Of a stretch of DNA of 64,000 nucleotides, positions 1-6,005 are shown in pieces (the stretch's first letter is position 1; each line of letters starts with the position of its first letter). The DNA is taken from contig NZ_KI519455.1 in NCBI RefSeq assembly GCF_000482545.1, positions 1,301,247 through 1,365,246 of the forward strand, given 5' to 3'. This DNA is from Arthrobacter sp. 35W (GTDB taxonomy: Bacteria; Actinomycetota; Actinomycetes; Actinomycetales; Micrococcaceae). The translations under genes were made by a program, and so were the position numbers. The notes below the pieces were generated by a model, which worked only from the letters and a program-made list of their open reading frames with translations, ran no database searches and was not told where the DNA came from.

Positions 1-948
1 GGATGTCTGGGAAAACAGGTCAGACAACGGTGTTGAGCTCCCCGTTATGTCCAACGGCGCCTCTTTGAGGGCTACGTCCTGGGCGGTCGCGGCAAGAAGA
101 TAGAGCACGCCCGCGAGGATGGGAGTCCACGTGATGGCCCGTGGAACGCTGACGAAGGGTTTCTGCGCCTCGCCTCCCAGCGTGGTTGGGCTTTCGAAGC
201 CGACAAAGGCGCTGATGGCCACGACGATTCCGATCGATAACAAATCAAAATCTCCGTTCCAGGCAAACACGCTGCCGAGGCCCACCGTCGGCGGGTTGAC
301 GGCGAAGTAGACGATCATCAGGACGGCGAGGATTCCAATTGAAATGGATTCCATCAGCAGCGTGGACCACGCGGATACCCGGATCCCCCTGATCATGAGG
401 AAACAGGCGGCACCCGCGGCAGCAAGAATGACGAGGACCGTGAAAATCCTGGGATCCGCGAAGGCGACGCCCAGATTGATCAACAGCTGAACGACATAGG
501 TGCCAACCGCCAGCAGACTGGCCATGGCCACCAGGCCGTACCCAAAGATGGCCGACCAGCCGGCGGTAATTGCTGTCCGTTGGCCAAGTCCCTTGGCTGT
601 GTAGCTGTAGAGGCCGCTGACGGCCGCCATGCGCTTGGCCATCGGTCGCAGGCAGAAGGAAACAAGGATCACGACCGCCATGGCTGCGCCGAATGTCAGC
701 GCAAGGTTCGGCCTGGCGGATCCCAAGACAAGTCCCGGAAAGATCAGGGCCGGAATGACGGACATGGCACCGGCGGGCGCCACGTTGGCTACTGCCTGCG
801 CGACGACCGGCAAGAAGGAAAGCTTCCGGCGGCGAAGGCCCTCCACCGGAGAGTGGGGGGTGATGAAGCGATCACCGTGGGCAGACACTGCGTACCAACT
901 TTCCCTCCGGTGGGCAGGCTCGCCTTGCTTATGAGTGACGCAAGTCAT
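1..948 (-). CDS. APC-family amino-acid permease, 3' end cut by window edge
   Basis: The minus-strand frame is open from 948 to the window edge (316 codons, no stop). The translation has the N-terminal APC signature LSFLPVVAQAVANVAPAGAM followed by alternating hydrophobic segments, including ITAGWSAIFGYGLVAMASLL and a later ISAFVGFESPTTLGGEAQKP helix-break motif typical of amino-acid/polyamine permeases. The role is therefore proton-coupled uptake of an amino acid or amine across the membrane; the substrate cannot be told. The start is uncertain: ATG at 948 gives a long polar leader with no clear ribosome site, and GTG at 888 is the main alternative. It diverges from the amine oxidase and shares its 570-bp control region, so a link to amine uptake is an inference. 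Confidence 0.85.
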   Translation of the reverse strand, partial: MTCVTHKQGEPAHRRESWYAVSAHGDRFITPHSPVEGLRRRKLSFLPVVAQAVANVAPAGAMSVIPALIFPGLVLGSARPNLALTFGAAMAVVILVSFCLRPMAKRMAAVSGLYSYTAKGLGQRTAITAGWSAIFGYGLVAMASLLAVGTYVVQLLINLGVAFADPRIFTVLVILAAAGAACFLMIRGIRVSAWSTLLMESISIGILAVLMIVYFAVNPPTVGLGSVFAWNGDFDLLSIGIVVAISAFVGFESPTTLGGEAQKPFVSVPRAITWTPILAGVLYLLAATAQDVALKEAPLDITGSSTPLSDLFSQTS

Positions 949-1000
949 CGACCCGAAGTGCCAAACATTAGCATTCCCGCGGCCGGCGGCGGCATCCGTG

Positions 1001-1029
1001 AACATGTTTCCGAATGTTTCCAACATGTT
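1001..1029. promoter_or_regulatory. Tandem AACATGTT palindromes, probable operator
   Basis: Two identical self-complementary octamers AACATGTT lie at 1001-1008 and 1022-1029. Their centres are 21 bp apart, two helical turns, so both present the same DNA face. A direct repeat TGTTTCC (1005-1011 and 1015-1021) runs through them. The site lies just upstream of the permease start on the minus strand and about 490 bp upstream of the amine oxidase. It fits a cooperative binding site for a regulator of one or both genes. The regulator is unknown. Confidence 0.5.
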
Positions 1030-1100
1030 AACTGCAATGGGAAAATACGGCGCCGAATTTCTCACGGAAATTTTCAAGAAGCGCTCGCCTAAATGAATTC

Positions 1101-1196
1101 GCTGACGTAATTTGGTTACATGAAAGGGATGCATGTGATCGGCATCACGTCAGCAGAACTCGGGGACGAGCCCTGCTGACCCTCTAGAAATAGAGG
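1101..1196 (+). ncRNA. Candidate structured leader RNA upstream of amine oxidase
   Basis: Two hairpins lie end to end. The first pairs GTCAGCAG (1149-1156) with CTGCTGAC (1173-1180), has a 2x2 internal loop, then CTCG (1159-1162) with CGAG (1167-1170) around a GGGA loop. The second pairs CCTCTA (1181-1186) with TAGAGG (1191-1196) around GAAA. Both loops fit GNRA only when read on the plus strand. An upstream GCTGACGT (1101-1108) can instead pair with ACGTCAGC (1147-1154), enclosing a GTGAT/ATCAC hairpin (1135-1148), and this competes with the first hairpin for 1149-1154. The layout resembles an attenuator or riboswitch, but there is no U-tract and I match no known class. Three alternating GCTGAC/GTCAGC copies could instead be DNA binding sites. 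Confidence 0.4.
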
Positions 1197-1518
1197 ATGT
1201 TGAGGTTGCGGACGATCCCCCTGGGACCCACACCCGGGGTTGCCAAGGGGATTTCCAGCGAATTTTCATATGCACCAAAATTGAGCAGTTCCGACAAAGA
1301 TGAGAATTCCTGGAAATCCAAAGCCCCTTTGTCTTATTGGTCCCGCAACAGCAATGCCGCCCGCCGGACCGAGCACGAGATCCCAGGCTGGGCGTGTGTA
1401 GTGCAGCAACCCTTCTGCCTACTCCGTGGCGCCGCGATCCGCTTCTTCAAAGCCGGTTTCCGGAACACTTCGGCTGCCAGGCCAAAGTCACCCCGAATAA
1501 AGAACTAAGGAGTAAACC

Positions 1519-3456
1519 ATGACGATCAATACTGAAACCCACACCGTGGTAGGGACAGCACACCCCCTGGATCCGCTCTCCCGCGCCGAGATCTCCCGGG
1601 CGGCCGCGATCCTTAAGGACGGCCCGGCCGCGGCGGAGTCCTTCCGCTTCATCAGCGTGGAGCTGCGCGAGCCCGAGAAGGAGTTGCTGCGCACCGGTGC
1701 CGCGACGGCGCGTGAAGCAGACGCCGTGCTGGTCAACCGTGCCGAGGGACGCGCCTATGAGGCCGTCGTCGATCTTGATGCGGGCCTCGTGTCGAAGTGG
1801 ACGCAACTGGCCGCGAACGTCCACCCGCCCTTTATGCTGGACGAGTTTGCCGAGGGTGAAGCGACCTGCCGGCAGAACCCCGAGGTCCAGGCGGCCCTGG
1901 CCAAGCGGGGCATCACGGATATGGACCTGGTCTGTTTCGAACCGTGGTCCGTGGGCTACTTCGGTGAAGACAACGAGGGCCGGCGCCTGATGCGCGCCCT
2001 GGTCTTTGTCCGTGACGAGGCCGACGACAGCCCGTACGCGCACCCGATCGAGAACTTCATCGTCATCGTGGACCTGAACTCCGGGGAGGTCGTCAAGGTC
2101 GAGGACGACCAGGCGATCCCGGTTCCCAGCGCTAGCGGCAACTACCTGCCCAAGTACGTTGGAGAGGCCCGGACCGATCTGAAGCCGATCTCCATCACCC
2201 AGCCCGAAGGGGCGTCCTTCACGGTCACCGGCAACCACGTCCAGTGGGCCGACTGGTCCTTCCGTGTCGGCTTCACCCCCCGCGAGGGCCTGGTCCTGCA
2301 CCAGCTGCGCTTCCGCAACAAGGACACCGAGCGTCCCGTGATCAACCGGGCCTCCCTGTCGGAAATGGTCGTCCCGTACGGAGACACCGCCCCGGTCCAG
2401 GCGAAGAAGAACGCCTTCGACTCCGGTGAGTACAACATCGGCAACATGGCCAACTCCCTGACCCTGGGCTGCGACTGCACCGGGGAGATCAAGTACTTCG
2501 ACGGCATCACCACCGACAGCCACGGCAACCCGATGACCATCGAAAACGCGATCTGCATGCACGAGGAGGACGACAGCATCCTGTGGAAGCACTTCGACTT
2601 CCGCGAGGGCACCACCGAGACCCGCCGCAGCCGCAAGCTCGTGATCTCCTTCATCGCCACCGTCGCGAACTACGAGTACGCCTTCTACTGGCACCTGTTC
2701 CTGGACGGCAGCATCGAGTTCCTGGTCAAGGCCACCGGCATCCTCTCCACCGCCGGCCAGAAGCCCGGTGAGAAGAGCCCGTACGGGCAGACCCTGAACA
2801 ACGACGGCCTCTACGCCCCGATCCACCAGCACATGTTCAACGTCCGCATGGACTTTGAAATCGACGGCCCGCGCAACGCCGTCTATGAAGTGGACATGGA
2901 AATCCCCGAACACAACCCGACCCACACCGCCTTCATGGCCGTGGACCGGCTGCTGGAAACCGAACAGGCCGCCATCCGCAAGACCGACTCCTCCAAGCAC
3001 CGCTTCTGGAAGATCGCCAACCGCGACAGCCGCAACATCGTGGACGAACCCGTCGCCTACCGGCTGATCCCCACCGATGGCATCCAGCTGGCCGCCGGAG
3101 ACGAGTCCTACGTGAGCAAGCGGGCACAGTTCGCCCGCAACAACCTCTGGGTCACCGCCTACGACCGCAGCGAACGCTTCGCTGCCGGCGAGTTCCCCAA
3201 CCAGGCCACCGGCGCCGATGACGGACTGCACATCTGGACCCAGAAGGACCGCAACATCGTCGATCAGGACCTCGTGGTCTGGTACACGTTCGGCATGCAC
3301 CACGTCGTGCGTCTGGAGGACTGGCCCATCATGCCCCGCCAGAACATCGGCTTCATGCTCGAGCCCCACGGCTTCTTCGACCAGAACCCGACCCTGAACC
3401 TCCCGGCCAGGATCGAAGCCACCACCACCACCGACACCTGCTGCACCAACAACTGA
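1519..3456 (+). CDS. Copper/topaquinone primary-amine oxidase (tyramine oxidase type)
   Basis: The 645-residue product oxidises primary amines such as tyramine or phenylethylamine to the aldehyde, releasing ammonia and hydrogen peroxide. It shows the full bacterial CuAO layout. Tyr385 in VANYEYAFYW is the expected topaquinone precursor, Asp301 in FDSGEY is the expected catalytic base, and the copper ligands are His436 and His438 (HQH) and His595 in YTFGMHH. The N2/N3 domains precede the catalytic beta-sandwich. There is no signal peptide, so it is probably cytosolic like the Arthrobacter globiformis enzyme. The C-terminal tail ends in a Thr-rich run with a Cys pair, which is unusual. AAGGAG sits 6 nt before the ATG. 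The APC permease downstream suggests an amine uptake and oxidation pair. The exact amine preference is inferred only. Confidence 0.95.
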   Translation: MTINTETHTVVGTAHPLDPLSRAEISRAAAILKDGPAAAESFRFISVELREPEKELLRTGAATAREADAVLVNRAEGRAYEAVVDLDAGLVSKWTQLAANVHPPFMLDEFAEGEATCRQNPEVQAALAKRGITDMDLVCFEPWSVGYFGEDNEGRRLMRALVFVRDEADDSPYAHPIENFIVIVDLNSGEVVKVEDDQAIPVPSASGNYLPKYVGEARTDLKPISITQPEGASFTVTGNHVQWADWSFRVGFTPREGLVLHQLRFRNKDTERPVINRASLSEMVVPYGDTAPVQAKKNAFDSGEYNIGNMANSLTLGCDCTGEIKYFDGITTDSHGNPMTIENAICMHEEDDSILWKHFDFREGTTETRRSRKLVISFIATVANYEYAFYWHLFLDGSIEFLVKATGILSTAGQKPGEKSPYGQTLNNDGLYAPIHQHMFNVRMDFEIDGPRNAVYEVDMEIPEHNPTHTAFMAVDRLLETEQAAIRKTDSSKHRFWKIANRDSRNIVDEPVAYRLIPTDGIQLAAGDESYVSKRAQFARNNLWVTAYDRSERFAAGEFPNQATGADDGLHIWTQKDRNIVDQDLVVWYTFGMHHVVRLEDWPIMPRQNIGFMLEPHGFFDQNPTLNLPARIEATTTTDTCCTNN

Positions 3457-3467
3457 CAGTCCTTGGC

Positions 3468-3516
3468 TGAGGTCACGGGAGCGCCACTGCTCGCTCACGG
3501 CGCTCCCGTGACCTCA
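3468..3516. terminator. 18-bp perfect hairpin after amine oxidase
   Basis: The arms at 3468-3485 and 3499-3516 (5' arm TGAGGTCACGGGAGCGCC) are exact complements over 18 bp with a 13-nt loop. It begins 11 nt after the stop codon. There is no T-tract, so it may end transcription inefficiently or act as an RNA 3' stabiliser. It sits in a 301-bp gap in which I see no other gene. Confidence 0.65.
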
Positions 3517-3757
3517 TCGTGAGGTGCAAGTCTGCCCTCGGGGCCATCTGCCTCGACCGGTTCAACAAATGCCCGCGTGGACCAAGACAGCGGCGGGCGG
3601 CCCAGGCATGACTTTGGCATCTGCAAACCAGGAAACCCAATTGCACCTCCCTGCGTGCTTGGACGTTCACTTCGGGGTTCCGGCTCATACTCGCCGGCCG
3701 CCAGCGGCCTTGGCGCAGTAGAGATCACACGACGTTCAGTTCATCAAAGGAGATGTT

Positions 3758-5245
3758 ATGAGTGAAAAAAATTCGGATGGCGCCGATCACCTGAAAAGGT
3801 CGATCGACTGGAAGCAGGGCATGGCCATTGCATTGGGGGTGCCCATGCTGATTCTGCCATCATTGGGCTATCTTCCGATGTATGTTTCCGCCGCAGCAAT
3901 CGTTGTCTGGGGGCTGTCTGTCCTTCAAGGGTTTATGCAGAACGCTGCCTATGCTGAAATGGCCACCACCTTTCCCAAGGCCTCTGGTCTGCCGGGTTTC
4001 GCGCAGCATGTATTCCAGACCGAAAACTACCGGGGCAAGTATGACAAGAGCAAGCTGCTGGGCGGCTTCACCGCCTGGAGCTACTGGTTTGGTTGGAATC
4101 CGATCCTGGCGATCTTCGCCATCACGGCCGGCAGCTACCTGCATGGGCTGTTTCCGGTGCTGGGCGAGGCATTTACCGAGTATCAGCTAGCGCTAATCTC
4201 AGGTCTGGTGATTTTCGGCGGATTGTTCGTGGTCAACTGGTTCGGCCTCAAGGATGGCGCCAAACTGGGTTACATCCTGGCTGCCATATCTCTGATACCG
4301 CTGGTCATCCTGGCCGTGGCGCCGTTTGCCACCGGACACGTAGACCTGGTCAACATCACCGGCAACTGGTGGCCGACCGACTGGGCCTGGGATCTGCACC
4401 ATATCCTGATGCTCTTTGGCATCTTTGGGATTGCCCAGTGGAGTGCCTGCGCCTGGGAAACGGCGGCCATCTACGGCCCTGAATACAAGAACCCGTCCAA
4501 GGATGTCCCCAAGGCTCTGCTTGCCTGCGGCATCATCTGCTTCCTCCTGTACGCACTGCTGCAAGCTGCAGTGATCGGCGTGCTTGGTGTTGAGGGCGTA
4601 CAGGCCCAGGCCGTGTCGCCCCTGATTCCAGTCGCCCAGGCTGTCTTTGGCCAAGCCGGTTCAATCATCACCATCATCATGTTGATCGCCGCCATGGTCC
4701 TCATCATCCAGACGGCTTACCTTGGTGCTTCCCGCGCCATGCACTCCATGGCGACGGAAGGCAACCTTCCCCGCGTTTTCGGTAAAACCAACCGCCAGGG
4801 AACCCCCTTTGTTGCCATGCTGGTGATCGGTGCCTTCAACCTGGTGTTGATTTCCATGGGAAACGCCGCGGCAATTCTTGCAGCCTCGGCGATCGGTTAC
4901 ACCTGTGCCAACGGCATCAGCCTGTTTGCCTATGTCAAGGCCAAGAACCACCCGGCCTTTGCTGCTCTGGAAAGGCCCTTCAAAGCCCCCAGGGGCTGGA
5001 AAAGGGTCGCCATGGCTTTTGGCCTGTTCAACGTGCCGCTGTGCCTGATCGGCGTTGTCTACCTGAACAGCCTGGAGATCGGCTGGACCTCCACCTGGGT
5101 TGGCTTCCTCGTCTTGGCACTCTACCTACCCATCTGGCTGTATTCCCAGCGTGAATCACGGCGTGCCGGCGCCAAAGCAGCCGCTGCCCACTCGTCAGGC
5201 CACGTTGTCGAAGATCGGGAAAAGCTTCTGGATCCCACTCGGTAA
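3758..5245 (+). CDS. APC-superfamily amine/amino-acid permease
   Basis: This 495-residue membrane protein has about 12 hydrophobic segments and APC features: GMAIALGVPMLILPSLGYL near the N terminus and the conserved ACAWETAAIYGPEYKNPSKD stretch before a central helix. It would import an amine or amino acid by ion coupling. Its position after the copper amine oxidase suggests tyramine, phenylethylamine or a related amine, but this is inferred from context. AAAGGAG at 3746-3752 supports the ATG at 3758. Codon use is less GC-extreme than in the oxidase, with AAA, AAT and TTT codons near the start, so the pair may have different histories. A 17-bp hairpin follows the gene. Confidence 0.88.
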   Translation: MSEKNSDGADHLKRSIDWKQGMAIALGVPMLILPSLGYLPMYVSAAAIVVWGLSVLQGFMQNAAYAEMATTFPKASGLPGFAQHVFQTENYRGKYDKSKLLGGFTAWSYWFGWNPILAIFAITAGSYLHGLFPVLGEAFTEYQLALISGLVIFGGLFVVNWFGLKDGAKLGYILAAISLIPLVILAVAPFATGHVDLVNITGNWWPTDWAWDLHHILMLFGIFGIAQWSACAWETAAIYGPEYKNPSKDVPKALLACGIICFLLYALLQAAVIGVLGVEGVQAQAVSPLIPVAQAVFGQAGSIITIIMLIAAMVLIIQTAYLGASRAMHSMATEGNLPRVFGKTNRQGTPFVAMLVIGAFNLVLISMGNAAAILAASAIGYTCANGISLFAYVKAKNHPAFAALERPFKAPRGWKRVAMAFGLFNVPLCLIGVVYLNSLEIGWTSTWVGFLVLALYLPIWLYSQRESRRAGAKAAAAHSSGHVVEDREKLLDPTR

Positions 5246-5264
5246 CGTCTGGTCGCCACCAGTT

Positions 5265-5302
5265 GGTCCCCGGTGCTGCTGTTCACAGCAGCACCGGGGA
5301 CC
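5265..5302. terminator. 17-bp perfect hairpin after permease
   Basis: Arms 5265-5281 and 5286-5302 are exact complements (GGTCCCCGGTGCTGCTG and its reverse complement) with a TTCA tetraloop, 19 nt after the permease stop. No T-run follows. The short loop and GC-rich stem make it a strong RNA hairpin, probably a terminator insulating the downstream gene. Confidence 0.7.
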
Positions 5303-5345
5303 ATTCCCACACCCACCCCAAAACCCACCAGGGAGCGTGACAGGC

Positions 5346-6005
5346 GTGTTCAACATCCCCGCAATAACCTGGGCCCTCACGGCCGTGCTGCTGCTCGGCA
5401 CAGGCCACCACGCCCTGGCGGCAGCACGGTCCCGCCACCTCACCGACACCGTCAACAACAGCCTCCACGCCCTCATGAACGCCCTGATGGCCGCCATGCT
5501 GTGGAACCTCGCCGCCTCCACCACCCTGGCCCAGGTCATCCTCCTGGCCGGCGCCGCCCTGTGGTTCATCATCCAGGCCGTCGCCCGCCCCGAATTCACC
5601 ATCCTGTGCGCCGGCAGCCAGGGCCGGCTCAAATGCGGCTACCACGCCCTCACCATGGCCGGCGCCGCCCTCATGGTCGCCATGATGGCCCACCTGGGCA
5701 CCCCCGGGGCCGGCGCCCCGGCCGGCGGGGCACCCATGGCCCACACCCACCACGCCATGGCCGCCGCACCCCCCACCACGGGCGGAGGTGCCGCACCCCT
5801 GGCCGGGTCCCCGGCCCTGGCCATCGCACTGACGGTCCTCTTCGGCGCCGCAGCACTGCTGTTCGCCATCCTGCTCCTGCGGCCCCGGGCGCCGAAAACC
5901 ACCGGGCATGCGGGAGCCCGGAAGCGCTCCGTCCGCGCAGGCCATGCACTGGAGGCCCTGGGCGCCGCGGCCATGGCCGCCATGTTCGCCACCATGGCCA
6001 CCTGA
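5346..6005 (+). CDS. DUF5134-like small membrane protein
   Basis: The 219-residue product has several transmembrane segments and a His/Met-rich hydrophilic middle (around MAHTHHAMAAAP) that could bind a metal such as copper; that is a guess from composition. It resembles actinobacterial DUF5134 proteins, which have no established function. GTG at 5346 is chosen because GGGAG at 5331-5335 lies 10 nt upstream. GTG at 5337 is in frame but too close to that site. It lies between two strong hairpins and is probably monocistronic. A role linked to copper supply for the amine oxidase is possible but unsupported beyond proximity. Confidence 0.7.
   Translation: MFNIPAITWALTAVLLLGTGHHALAAARSRHLTDTVNNSLHALMNALMAAMLWNLAASTTLAQVILLAGAALWFIIQAVARPEFTILCAGSQGRLKCGYHALTMAGAALMVAMMAHLGTPGAGAPAGGAPMAHTHHAMAAAPPTTGGGAAPLAGSPALAIALTVLFGAAALLFAILLLRPRAPKTTGHAGARKRSVRAGHALEALGAAAMAAMFATMAT

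Follow-up and report, generated by a model that had tools for sequence, protein, structure and literature searches.

A structured leader RNA preceded by a conserved predicted promoter was found upstream of a copper amine oxidase gene in a 64,000-nucleotide stretch of DNA from Arthrobacter sp. 35W, henceforth referred to as the window. On an evenly balanced judgement, positions 1085–1262 contain a promoter and the first part of a structured 5' leader that is common to genes by which soil bacteria use methylated amines, from trimethylamine through dimethylamine to methylamine. That the leader is real, structured and pathway-specific is highly probable. It precedes a gene for a 645-aa copper amine oxidase (1519–3456, plus strand; NCBIfam PRK11504, 904 bits against a cut-off of 651) and one for a 495-aa APC-family permease (3758–5245, plus strand), whose best NCBIfam match, a trimethylamine N-oxide permease, scored 205.6 bits and thus falls below the cut-off of 690. 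The closest solved relatives of the window oxidase are phenylethylamine oxidases; its gene company and the excerpted text of PMC5023230 suggest that it is of the methylamine-oxidase type.

The distribution of the element was determined by DNA and covariance searches. A DNA search with 1080–1260 returned matches in 3 of 23 genomes of the genus, that of strain 35W included, and in 18 of 395 genomes of the family (E up to 0.01), several of the latter being short matches inside other sequence. Covariance model R1, which spans 116 positions, was built from 14 sequences and contains the local helix as its only structure, matched 21 of the 395 family genomes (E up to 0.01) with up to six copies per genome and four in that of strain 35W. 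Two of the 21 genomes, G236 and G151, contributed one weak match each, neither of them before pathway genes. Within the order, R1 matched 2 of 396 genomes (E up to 0.001), namely strain 35W and G511, a member of another family with four copies. Over the fetched loci the model gave 82 matches. Elements at contig ends were observed on short contigs of G017, G076, G116, G308 and G391, where repeated leaders and duplicated genes probably break the assemblies.

The genes that follow the element belong predominantly to a single pathway. With L025 left out as the same as L140, 81 elements were available, one locus being counted twice (L013 and L134). The first recognised gene was an EutQ-like cupin after 32 elements, a copper amine oxidase after 26, a zinc-ribbon-like gene after 5, a BCCT gene after 3 and an APC permease after 1; an unidentified ORF followed one element, no gene followed six and a contig end followed seven. 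The three BCCT genes had carried a DmmBC label arising from a spurious short match. Sixteen of the 81 elements lie at loci that were retrieved through the oxidase protein, which favours oxidases, and the remaining 65 gave cupin 27, oxidase 18, zinc-ribbon-like 5, BCCT 3, APC 1, unidentified 1, none 3 and contig end 7. The zinc-ribbon-like small proteins, recognised by eye, include L119:3985–4263 and relatives.

The cupins lead operons for dimethylamine monooxygenase, for trimethylamine monooxygenase or for amine/betaine transporters of the APC and BCCT kinds. Dimethylamine monooxygenase (Dmm) genes after the cupins encode DmmA-like proteins, a DmmA-like/ferredoxin-type reductase and an HODM-like protein, and the trimethylamine monooxygenase was identified by an NCBIfam equivalog at 731 bits (cut-off 675). 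The four copies in the genome of strain 35W precede the window oxidase and permease, a cupin with trimethylamine monooxygenase, a cupin with dimethylamine monooxygenase genes, and a second oxidase. Tyramine and phenylethylamine, which the sequence-only reading had put forward for in-line probing, are not the leading candidate ligands, the gene company being that of a methylated-amine pathway. Similar methylated-amine clusters, with Tmo, Mao and EutQ-like cupins, are described for Arthrobacter methylotrophs in the excerpted text of PMC5023230; the cupins, to which no function is assigned there, adjoin Tmo and Mao, and two strains each carry two nearly identical Mao copies. The terms riboswitch, promoter, leader, upstream, GntR and transcriptional regulator do not appear in the main text of that paper.

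Over their coding sequences the two oxidase genes of strain 35W (window 1519–3456; the G000:C2 copy, L157:5900–7837) share 99.4% identity. Near-identity starts 20 nt before the start codon, and the leaders, both matched by R1, are 66% alike over 235 nt, a pattern likely to reflect gene conversion confined to the coding region while the leaders evolve separately. Direct repeats GAYGAACAGTTCTGACAAA are present in oxidase leaders (L002 at ~1695–1735, L003 and L070) and could encode very short peptides; short leader peptides were also read by eye in GATGAACAGTTCTGAC repeats that some relatives carry. Genes for transketolase, transaldolase and glucose-6-phosphate dehydrogenase, company that is expected for C1 assimilation, lie near the trimethylamine monooxygenase copy at L158.

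Co-occurrence was examined with the oxidase and with trimethylamine monooxygenase. An oxidase match (E up to 1e-100) was present in 189 of 379 family genomes. Among the matches listed, 11 of the 379 genomes have an oxidase 57–100% identical to that of the window, all 11 carry the element, and the other oxidase matches are at most 49% identical. The element was also detected in five of the other 178 oxidase genomes: G236, with its one weak match, and G076, G116, G268 and G308, some of whose elements at least stand at contig ends beside truncated pathway genes. Element genomes G017, G151, G384, G386 and G391 either have no oxidase match or fall outside the 379-genome sample. Nine oxidases 65–69% identical from other actinobacteria (L014, L015, L017–L019, L021–L023 and L027; Rhodococcus, Mycolicibacterium, Actinomadura and others) had neither the element (E up to 1) nor cupin or Dmm genes in the 4 kb upstream, so the element tracks cupin-Dmm-type company and not the oxidase alone. 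Trimethylamine monooxygenase (E up to 1e-100) was found in 82 of 395 genomes, 14 of them carrying the element (out of 21) and 68 lacking it (out of 374), and is not by itself predictive of the element. At L009 (oxidase 93% identical) the contig starts 65 nt ahead of the cupin, which cuts off the leader, and no match was obtained. In two Cryobacterium loci, L012 and L016, the place of the cupin leader was matched only weakly (E 0.05 and 0.33).

A predicted −35 box, TCGCCT (1085–1090, plus strand), is followed after 17 nt by a predicted −10 box, TAATTT (1108–1113, plus strand), an arrangement that would place the transcription start near 1120. Sixty-eight distinct sequences upstream of a conserved palindrome (1135–1148, see below) were compared. 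In 49 of these, TAnnT[TA] lies 15–22 nt 5' of the palindrome, and in 41 of the 49 one of four hexamers stands exactly 17 nt further upstream (TGGACT 22, TCGCCT 8, TCGACT 8, TAGACT 3; others 8). The −10 hexamers of the 49 are TAGCTT (23), TAGTTT (10), TAGGTT (6), TACTTT (4), TAATTT (2), TAACTT (2) and two others. The promoter was called on this fixed and conserved arrangement and not on a generic score, for which the best value over the 68 sequences was modestly separated from shuffles (6.97 vs 6.32); a generic consensus promoter scan of the window found no promoter. Fifteen of the other 19 sequences form a second promoter class, read by eye as TTGACT-N17-GAAAGT-like with TGAAC-N4-GTTCA-like spacers, as seen at L158:8150–8260, L124, L125 and L170. 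Of the 15 leaders, 14 stand before operons for trimethylamine monooxygenase or BCCT and one before an operon for dimethylamine monooxygenase. In strain 35W a TetR-family gene (L158:7363–7947) adjoins the second-class promoter and is a candidate regulator.

On the plus strand beyond the predicted start lie three hairpins: P2 (1149–1154 with 1175–1180 and 1156–1161 with 1168–1173, loop 1162–1167), P3 (CCTCTA-GAAA-TAGAGG, 1181–1196) and the long hairpin P4 (1206–1262). Covariation was scored over 80 rows, one for every distinct match, in an alignment fitted to P2, and because of this fit a retest was run on 44 leaders aligned with MAFFT without such fitting. These 44 were picked by hand from the 82 matches, the 38 left out being duplicates, weak matches or leaders visibly devoid of P3 or P4, so the tests of P3 and P4 are valid for that choice only. 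A swap test was also used, in which native arm pairs were compared with arms exchanged between leaders less than 80% identical. Calibration with 60 control window pairs gave a mean z of −0.02 (s.d. 1.13); a control pair with z −2.15 overlapped the long-range helix considered below, and the lowest-scoring one (z −3.28) has arms in common with P2 and with P1, a possible additional helix.

P2 was strongly supported. Over the 80 relatives 84.5% of its cells pair, with 86 double-change cells compared to 35.0 ± 5.7 in shuffles (0 of 500 as high); one of five measures was ordinary, in that 190 of 500 shuffles had as many pairs showing a double change. On the unfitted alignment none of 1000 shuffles scored as high, and the swap test gave z −5.9. 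P4 gave a swap z of −5.6 and recurs in separate folds of many relatives. P3 gave z −3.4 and was not significant in a fixed-column test on the unfitted alignment; since the lowest control pair scored −3.3, P3 was considered moderately supported. The fold of 1095–1200 (−40.2 kcal/mol, z −4.31) was equalled by 1 of 200 shuffles and that of 1135–1260 (−61.0, z −4.42) by none of 200, and the mean folding z over the 44 leaders was −1.93, with negative values in 40. The two GNRA-loop hairpins had been noted as visible on the plus strand only; folding energy displayed no strand preference, the plus strand being lower in 23 of the 44 leaders. RNAalifold on the first 15 sequences returned a slightly unfavourable covariation term of +0.15. 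A closing helix between 1127–1138 and 1262–1274, predicted in the fold of 1120–1285, was rejected as window-specific and not conserved (swap z +0.43). Overall, comparison of the relatives points to a conserved structured leader, well supported in P2 and P4 and moderately in P3.

The P2 loop has 6 nt in 64 of the 80 distinct aligned relatives. In these 64 hexaloops position 1 is a purine in 62 (G 38, A 24) and position 4 is G in 59, giving the consensus R-R-A-G-Y-R with conserved closing pairs. Two adjacent hairpins with GNRA loops had been read from the sequence; GGGA (1163–1166) and GAAA (1187–1190) are indeed present here, the first being the window's own variant of the hexaloop. By eye, roughly ten matched leaders are without P2 and some seem to retain P2 alone. 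All four G511 leaders contain a P2-like hairpin (loops GGAGCA, GGAGTA, AGAGCA and GAATCA) and precede cupin-trimethylamine monooxygenase, cupin-Dmm, BCCT and oxidase genes. GTGA-N6-TCAC, the palindrome of the window, is missing from all four, one of which has GTGA-N3-TCAC. Because P2 is kept in G511 where the palindrome is missing, the palindrome was read as a DNA operator and P2 as the more widely kept feature. Of the leader's transcribed parts, P2 is the most persistent.

Recognition of P2 by a trans-acting factor is tentatively preferred, at less than even confidence, as the leader's main action; it was favoured over a ligand pocket because a single hairpin of the P2 kind suits such recognition better. 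Transcription would begin near 1120, with initiation probably gated by the operator at 1135–1148, and the transcribed leader would fold into P2, P3 and P4. A pathway-responsive trans-acting factor would then bind the P2 hexaloop hairpin, and the bound candidate factor may alter elongation, stability or translation of the element operons. More speculatively, the leaders of the Arthrobacter relatives and Cryobacterium might be cis-regulatory RNAs of a new class, by which methylated amines or their C1 product are sensed, directly or via an RNA-binding protein, and the whole pathway from trimethylamine to methylamine is coordinated. Pfam and NCBIfam scans of 24 distinct neighbouring proteins, most of them from the genome of strain 35W and together covering a minority of 358 clustered neighbouring ORFs, revealed no RNA-binding regulator; the regulators among the 24 are of GntR, IclR, TetR and LuxR types.

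The main rival, which we regard as unlikely, is a metabolite riboswitch in which a P1-P2-P3 junction would bind either a methylated amine or formaldehyde or another C1 product, with P4 and the downstream region as output. As in three-way-junction riboswitches, a covariation-backed structure was found in the 5' leaders of several operons of one pathway, and in the predicted fold of the window a possible P1 (1139–1146 with 1196–1203, plus strand) brings P2 and P3 together in a three-way junction. Conservation among the leaders extends to the P3-P4 linker GATGTCGGGTTTGC. Evidence for P1 itself was borderline. Its swap z was −2.5 (−2.6 with tighter arms) and its covariation score was reached by 18 of 500 shuffles, while over the 80 relatives 74.2% of its cells pair with 13 double changes compared to 10.6 in shuffles (106 of 500 as high). 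P1 was not significant on the unfitted MAFFT alignment of the 44 leaders, a set of 11 second-class leaders gave no sign of it (z −0.49), and the leaders that seem to keep P2 alone also speak against the junction.

A riboswitch would further be expected to carry an expression platform, and none was found in the form of a terminator or of Shine-Dalgarno (SD) masking. The absence of a U-run had been remarked on before, and the leader of the window contained no terminator-like site in 950–1530. A ribosome-binding site, AAGGAG in the window (1507–1512, plus strand), was found in 54 leaders; the SD had no consistent pairing partner and was as often unpaired as with shuffled leaders (0.42 vs 0.41, n = 50), and SD masking was rejected as the output. 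No match to a known class had been made by eye, and cmscan bore this out: with 1–6000 of the window (E up to 5) and 1080–1340 (E up to 10), both covering the window's own leader, no Rfam family came above chance or near its cut-off, the matches being to miRNA, lncRNA and other unrelated families far below theirs.

Regulation at the DNA level only was judged improbable. By this explanation the promoter and a GTGA-N6-TCAC operator (TGAAC-N4-GTTCA in the second class) would suffice, and the hairpins would be passengers or mRNA stabilisers. The palindrome at 1135–1148 is probably a DNA operator. As RNA it could form a 4-bp hairpin with a hexaloop; its GTGA and TCAC positions are paired in 309 of 317 cells in the alignment of relatives, and because they are nearly invariant their covariation is uninformative. 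The GUGA/UCAC hairpin was not retained as an RNA element, departures from the invariant form being too few to decide and the swap test giving z +0.5. The motif GTGAYYNRCATCAC, probably a wider operator, has 10 sites in the genome of strain 35W, 3 of them inside elements, compared to none for the reversed control. Some of the sites are without P2, including one at L170 that precedes a second-type cupin, and others precede unrelated-looking, lipoprotein-like and other ORFs as judged by eye.

Such near-invariance and sites without P2 agree with control at the DNA level, as do the TetR, GntR and IclR genes nearby. Operators of the CRP/FNR type are GTGA-N6-TCAC palindromes, with T/A flanks in the CRP consensus. 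The palindrome of the window matches this pattern, and the flanks are, by eye, not conserved among relatives; a Crp-type HTH gene is present in the genome, though such genes also match in 14 of 14 control genomes. Compensatory change in P2 and P4 and the retention of P2 in G511 both argue against this explanation.

An ANTAR target RNA, in which tandem hexaloop hairpins are bound by an ANTAR protein, was considered very improbable. Like the EutV/NasR/AmiR leaders, the element contains a hexaloop hairpin with a conserved G4 (59 of 64), and the best-studied ANTAR case (eut) also concerns the utilisation of a small amine. Of the 21 element genomes 10 were checked and each had ANTAR genes, that of strain 35W encoding two ANTAR proteins, and ANTAR RNAs are known from Arthrobacter according to the excerpted text of PMC8164766. 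ANTAR target loops carry both A1 and G4 in the excerpts of PMC3369931 and PMC8164766, whereas A1 occurs in 24 of the 64 hexaloops here, and the loop rule therefore failed. A second hexaloop with A1 and G4 was not seen by eye in the aligned leaders, and the terminator of such leaders is likewise missing. No ANTAR gene is close to an element in the 10 genomes, the nearest on a shared contig being ~73 kb away (G376).

Weakest of all was the two-state switch of the sequence-only reading, in which pairing of 1101–1108 with 1147–1154 would alternate with pairing of 1149–1156 with 1173–1180, and it was almost wholly discounted. Its description of the letters was accurate: GCTGACGT (1101–1108) is the exact complement of ACGTCAGC (1147–1154), GTCAGCAG (1149–1156) is that of CTGCTGAC (1173–1180), and the two 8-bp pairings share 1149–1154. 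The covariation in homologous leaders that it had proposed to look for was strong for the local helix and weak at best for the long-range one. Over the 80 distinct relatives 63.2% of the long-range cells pair, the outer pairs mostly failing, and 28 double-change cells were counted compared to 22.1 ± 3.7 in shuffles (37 of 500 as high); on three measures 34 to 46 of 500 shuffles were as high, and the swap z over the 44 leaders was −2.1. The 5' arm at 1101–1108 (plus strand) overlaps the predicted promoter, covering part of the spacer and the first base of the −10 box, and for this reason is probably not transcribed. In the second promoter class the sequence of this arm differs while P2 stays. 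On balance the long-range helix was rejected as a conserved element on account of its weak covariation and promoter overlap.

Methylated amines commonly serve as sources of nitrogen and carbon, and in the literature met here it is DNA-binding proteins that regulate how they are used (PMC13390433, in excerpt). As described in that excerpt, TmaR and TmoR of marine Proteobacteria also regulate the whole trimethylamine pathway together; unlike the proposed leader, they are protein regulators that act on promoter DNA, in a different phylum. A literature search by title and abstract, combining the pathway or the genus with riboswitch, found no RNA-level control of a methylated-amine pathway. The shared leader would offer a small target for a new RNA-based sensor or RNA-binding regulator, with a 32-nt hairpin for which natural variants are available and two near-identical oxidase genes that stand under different leaders.
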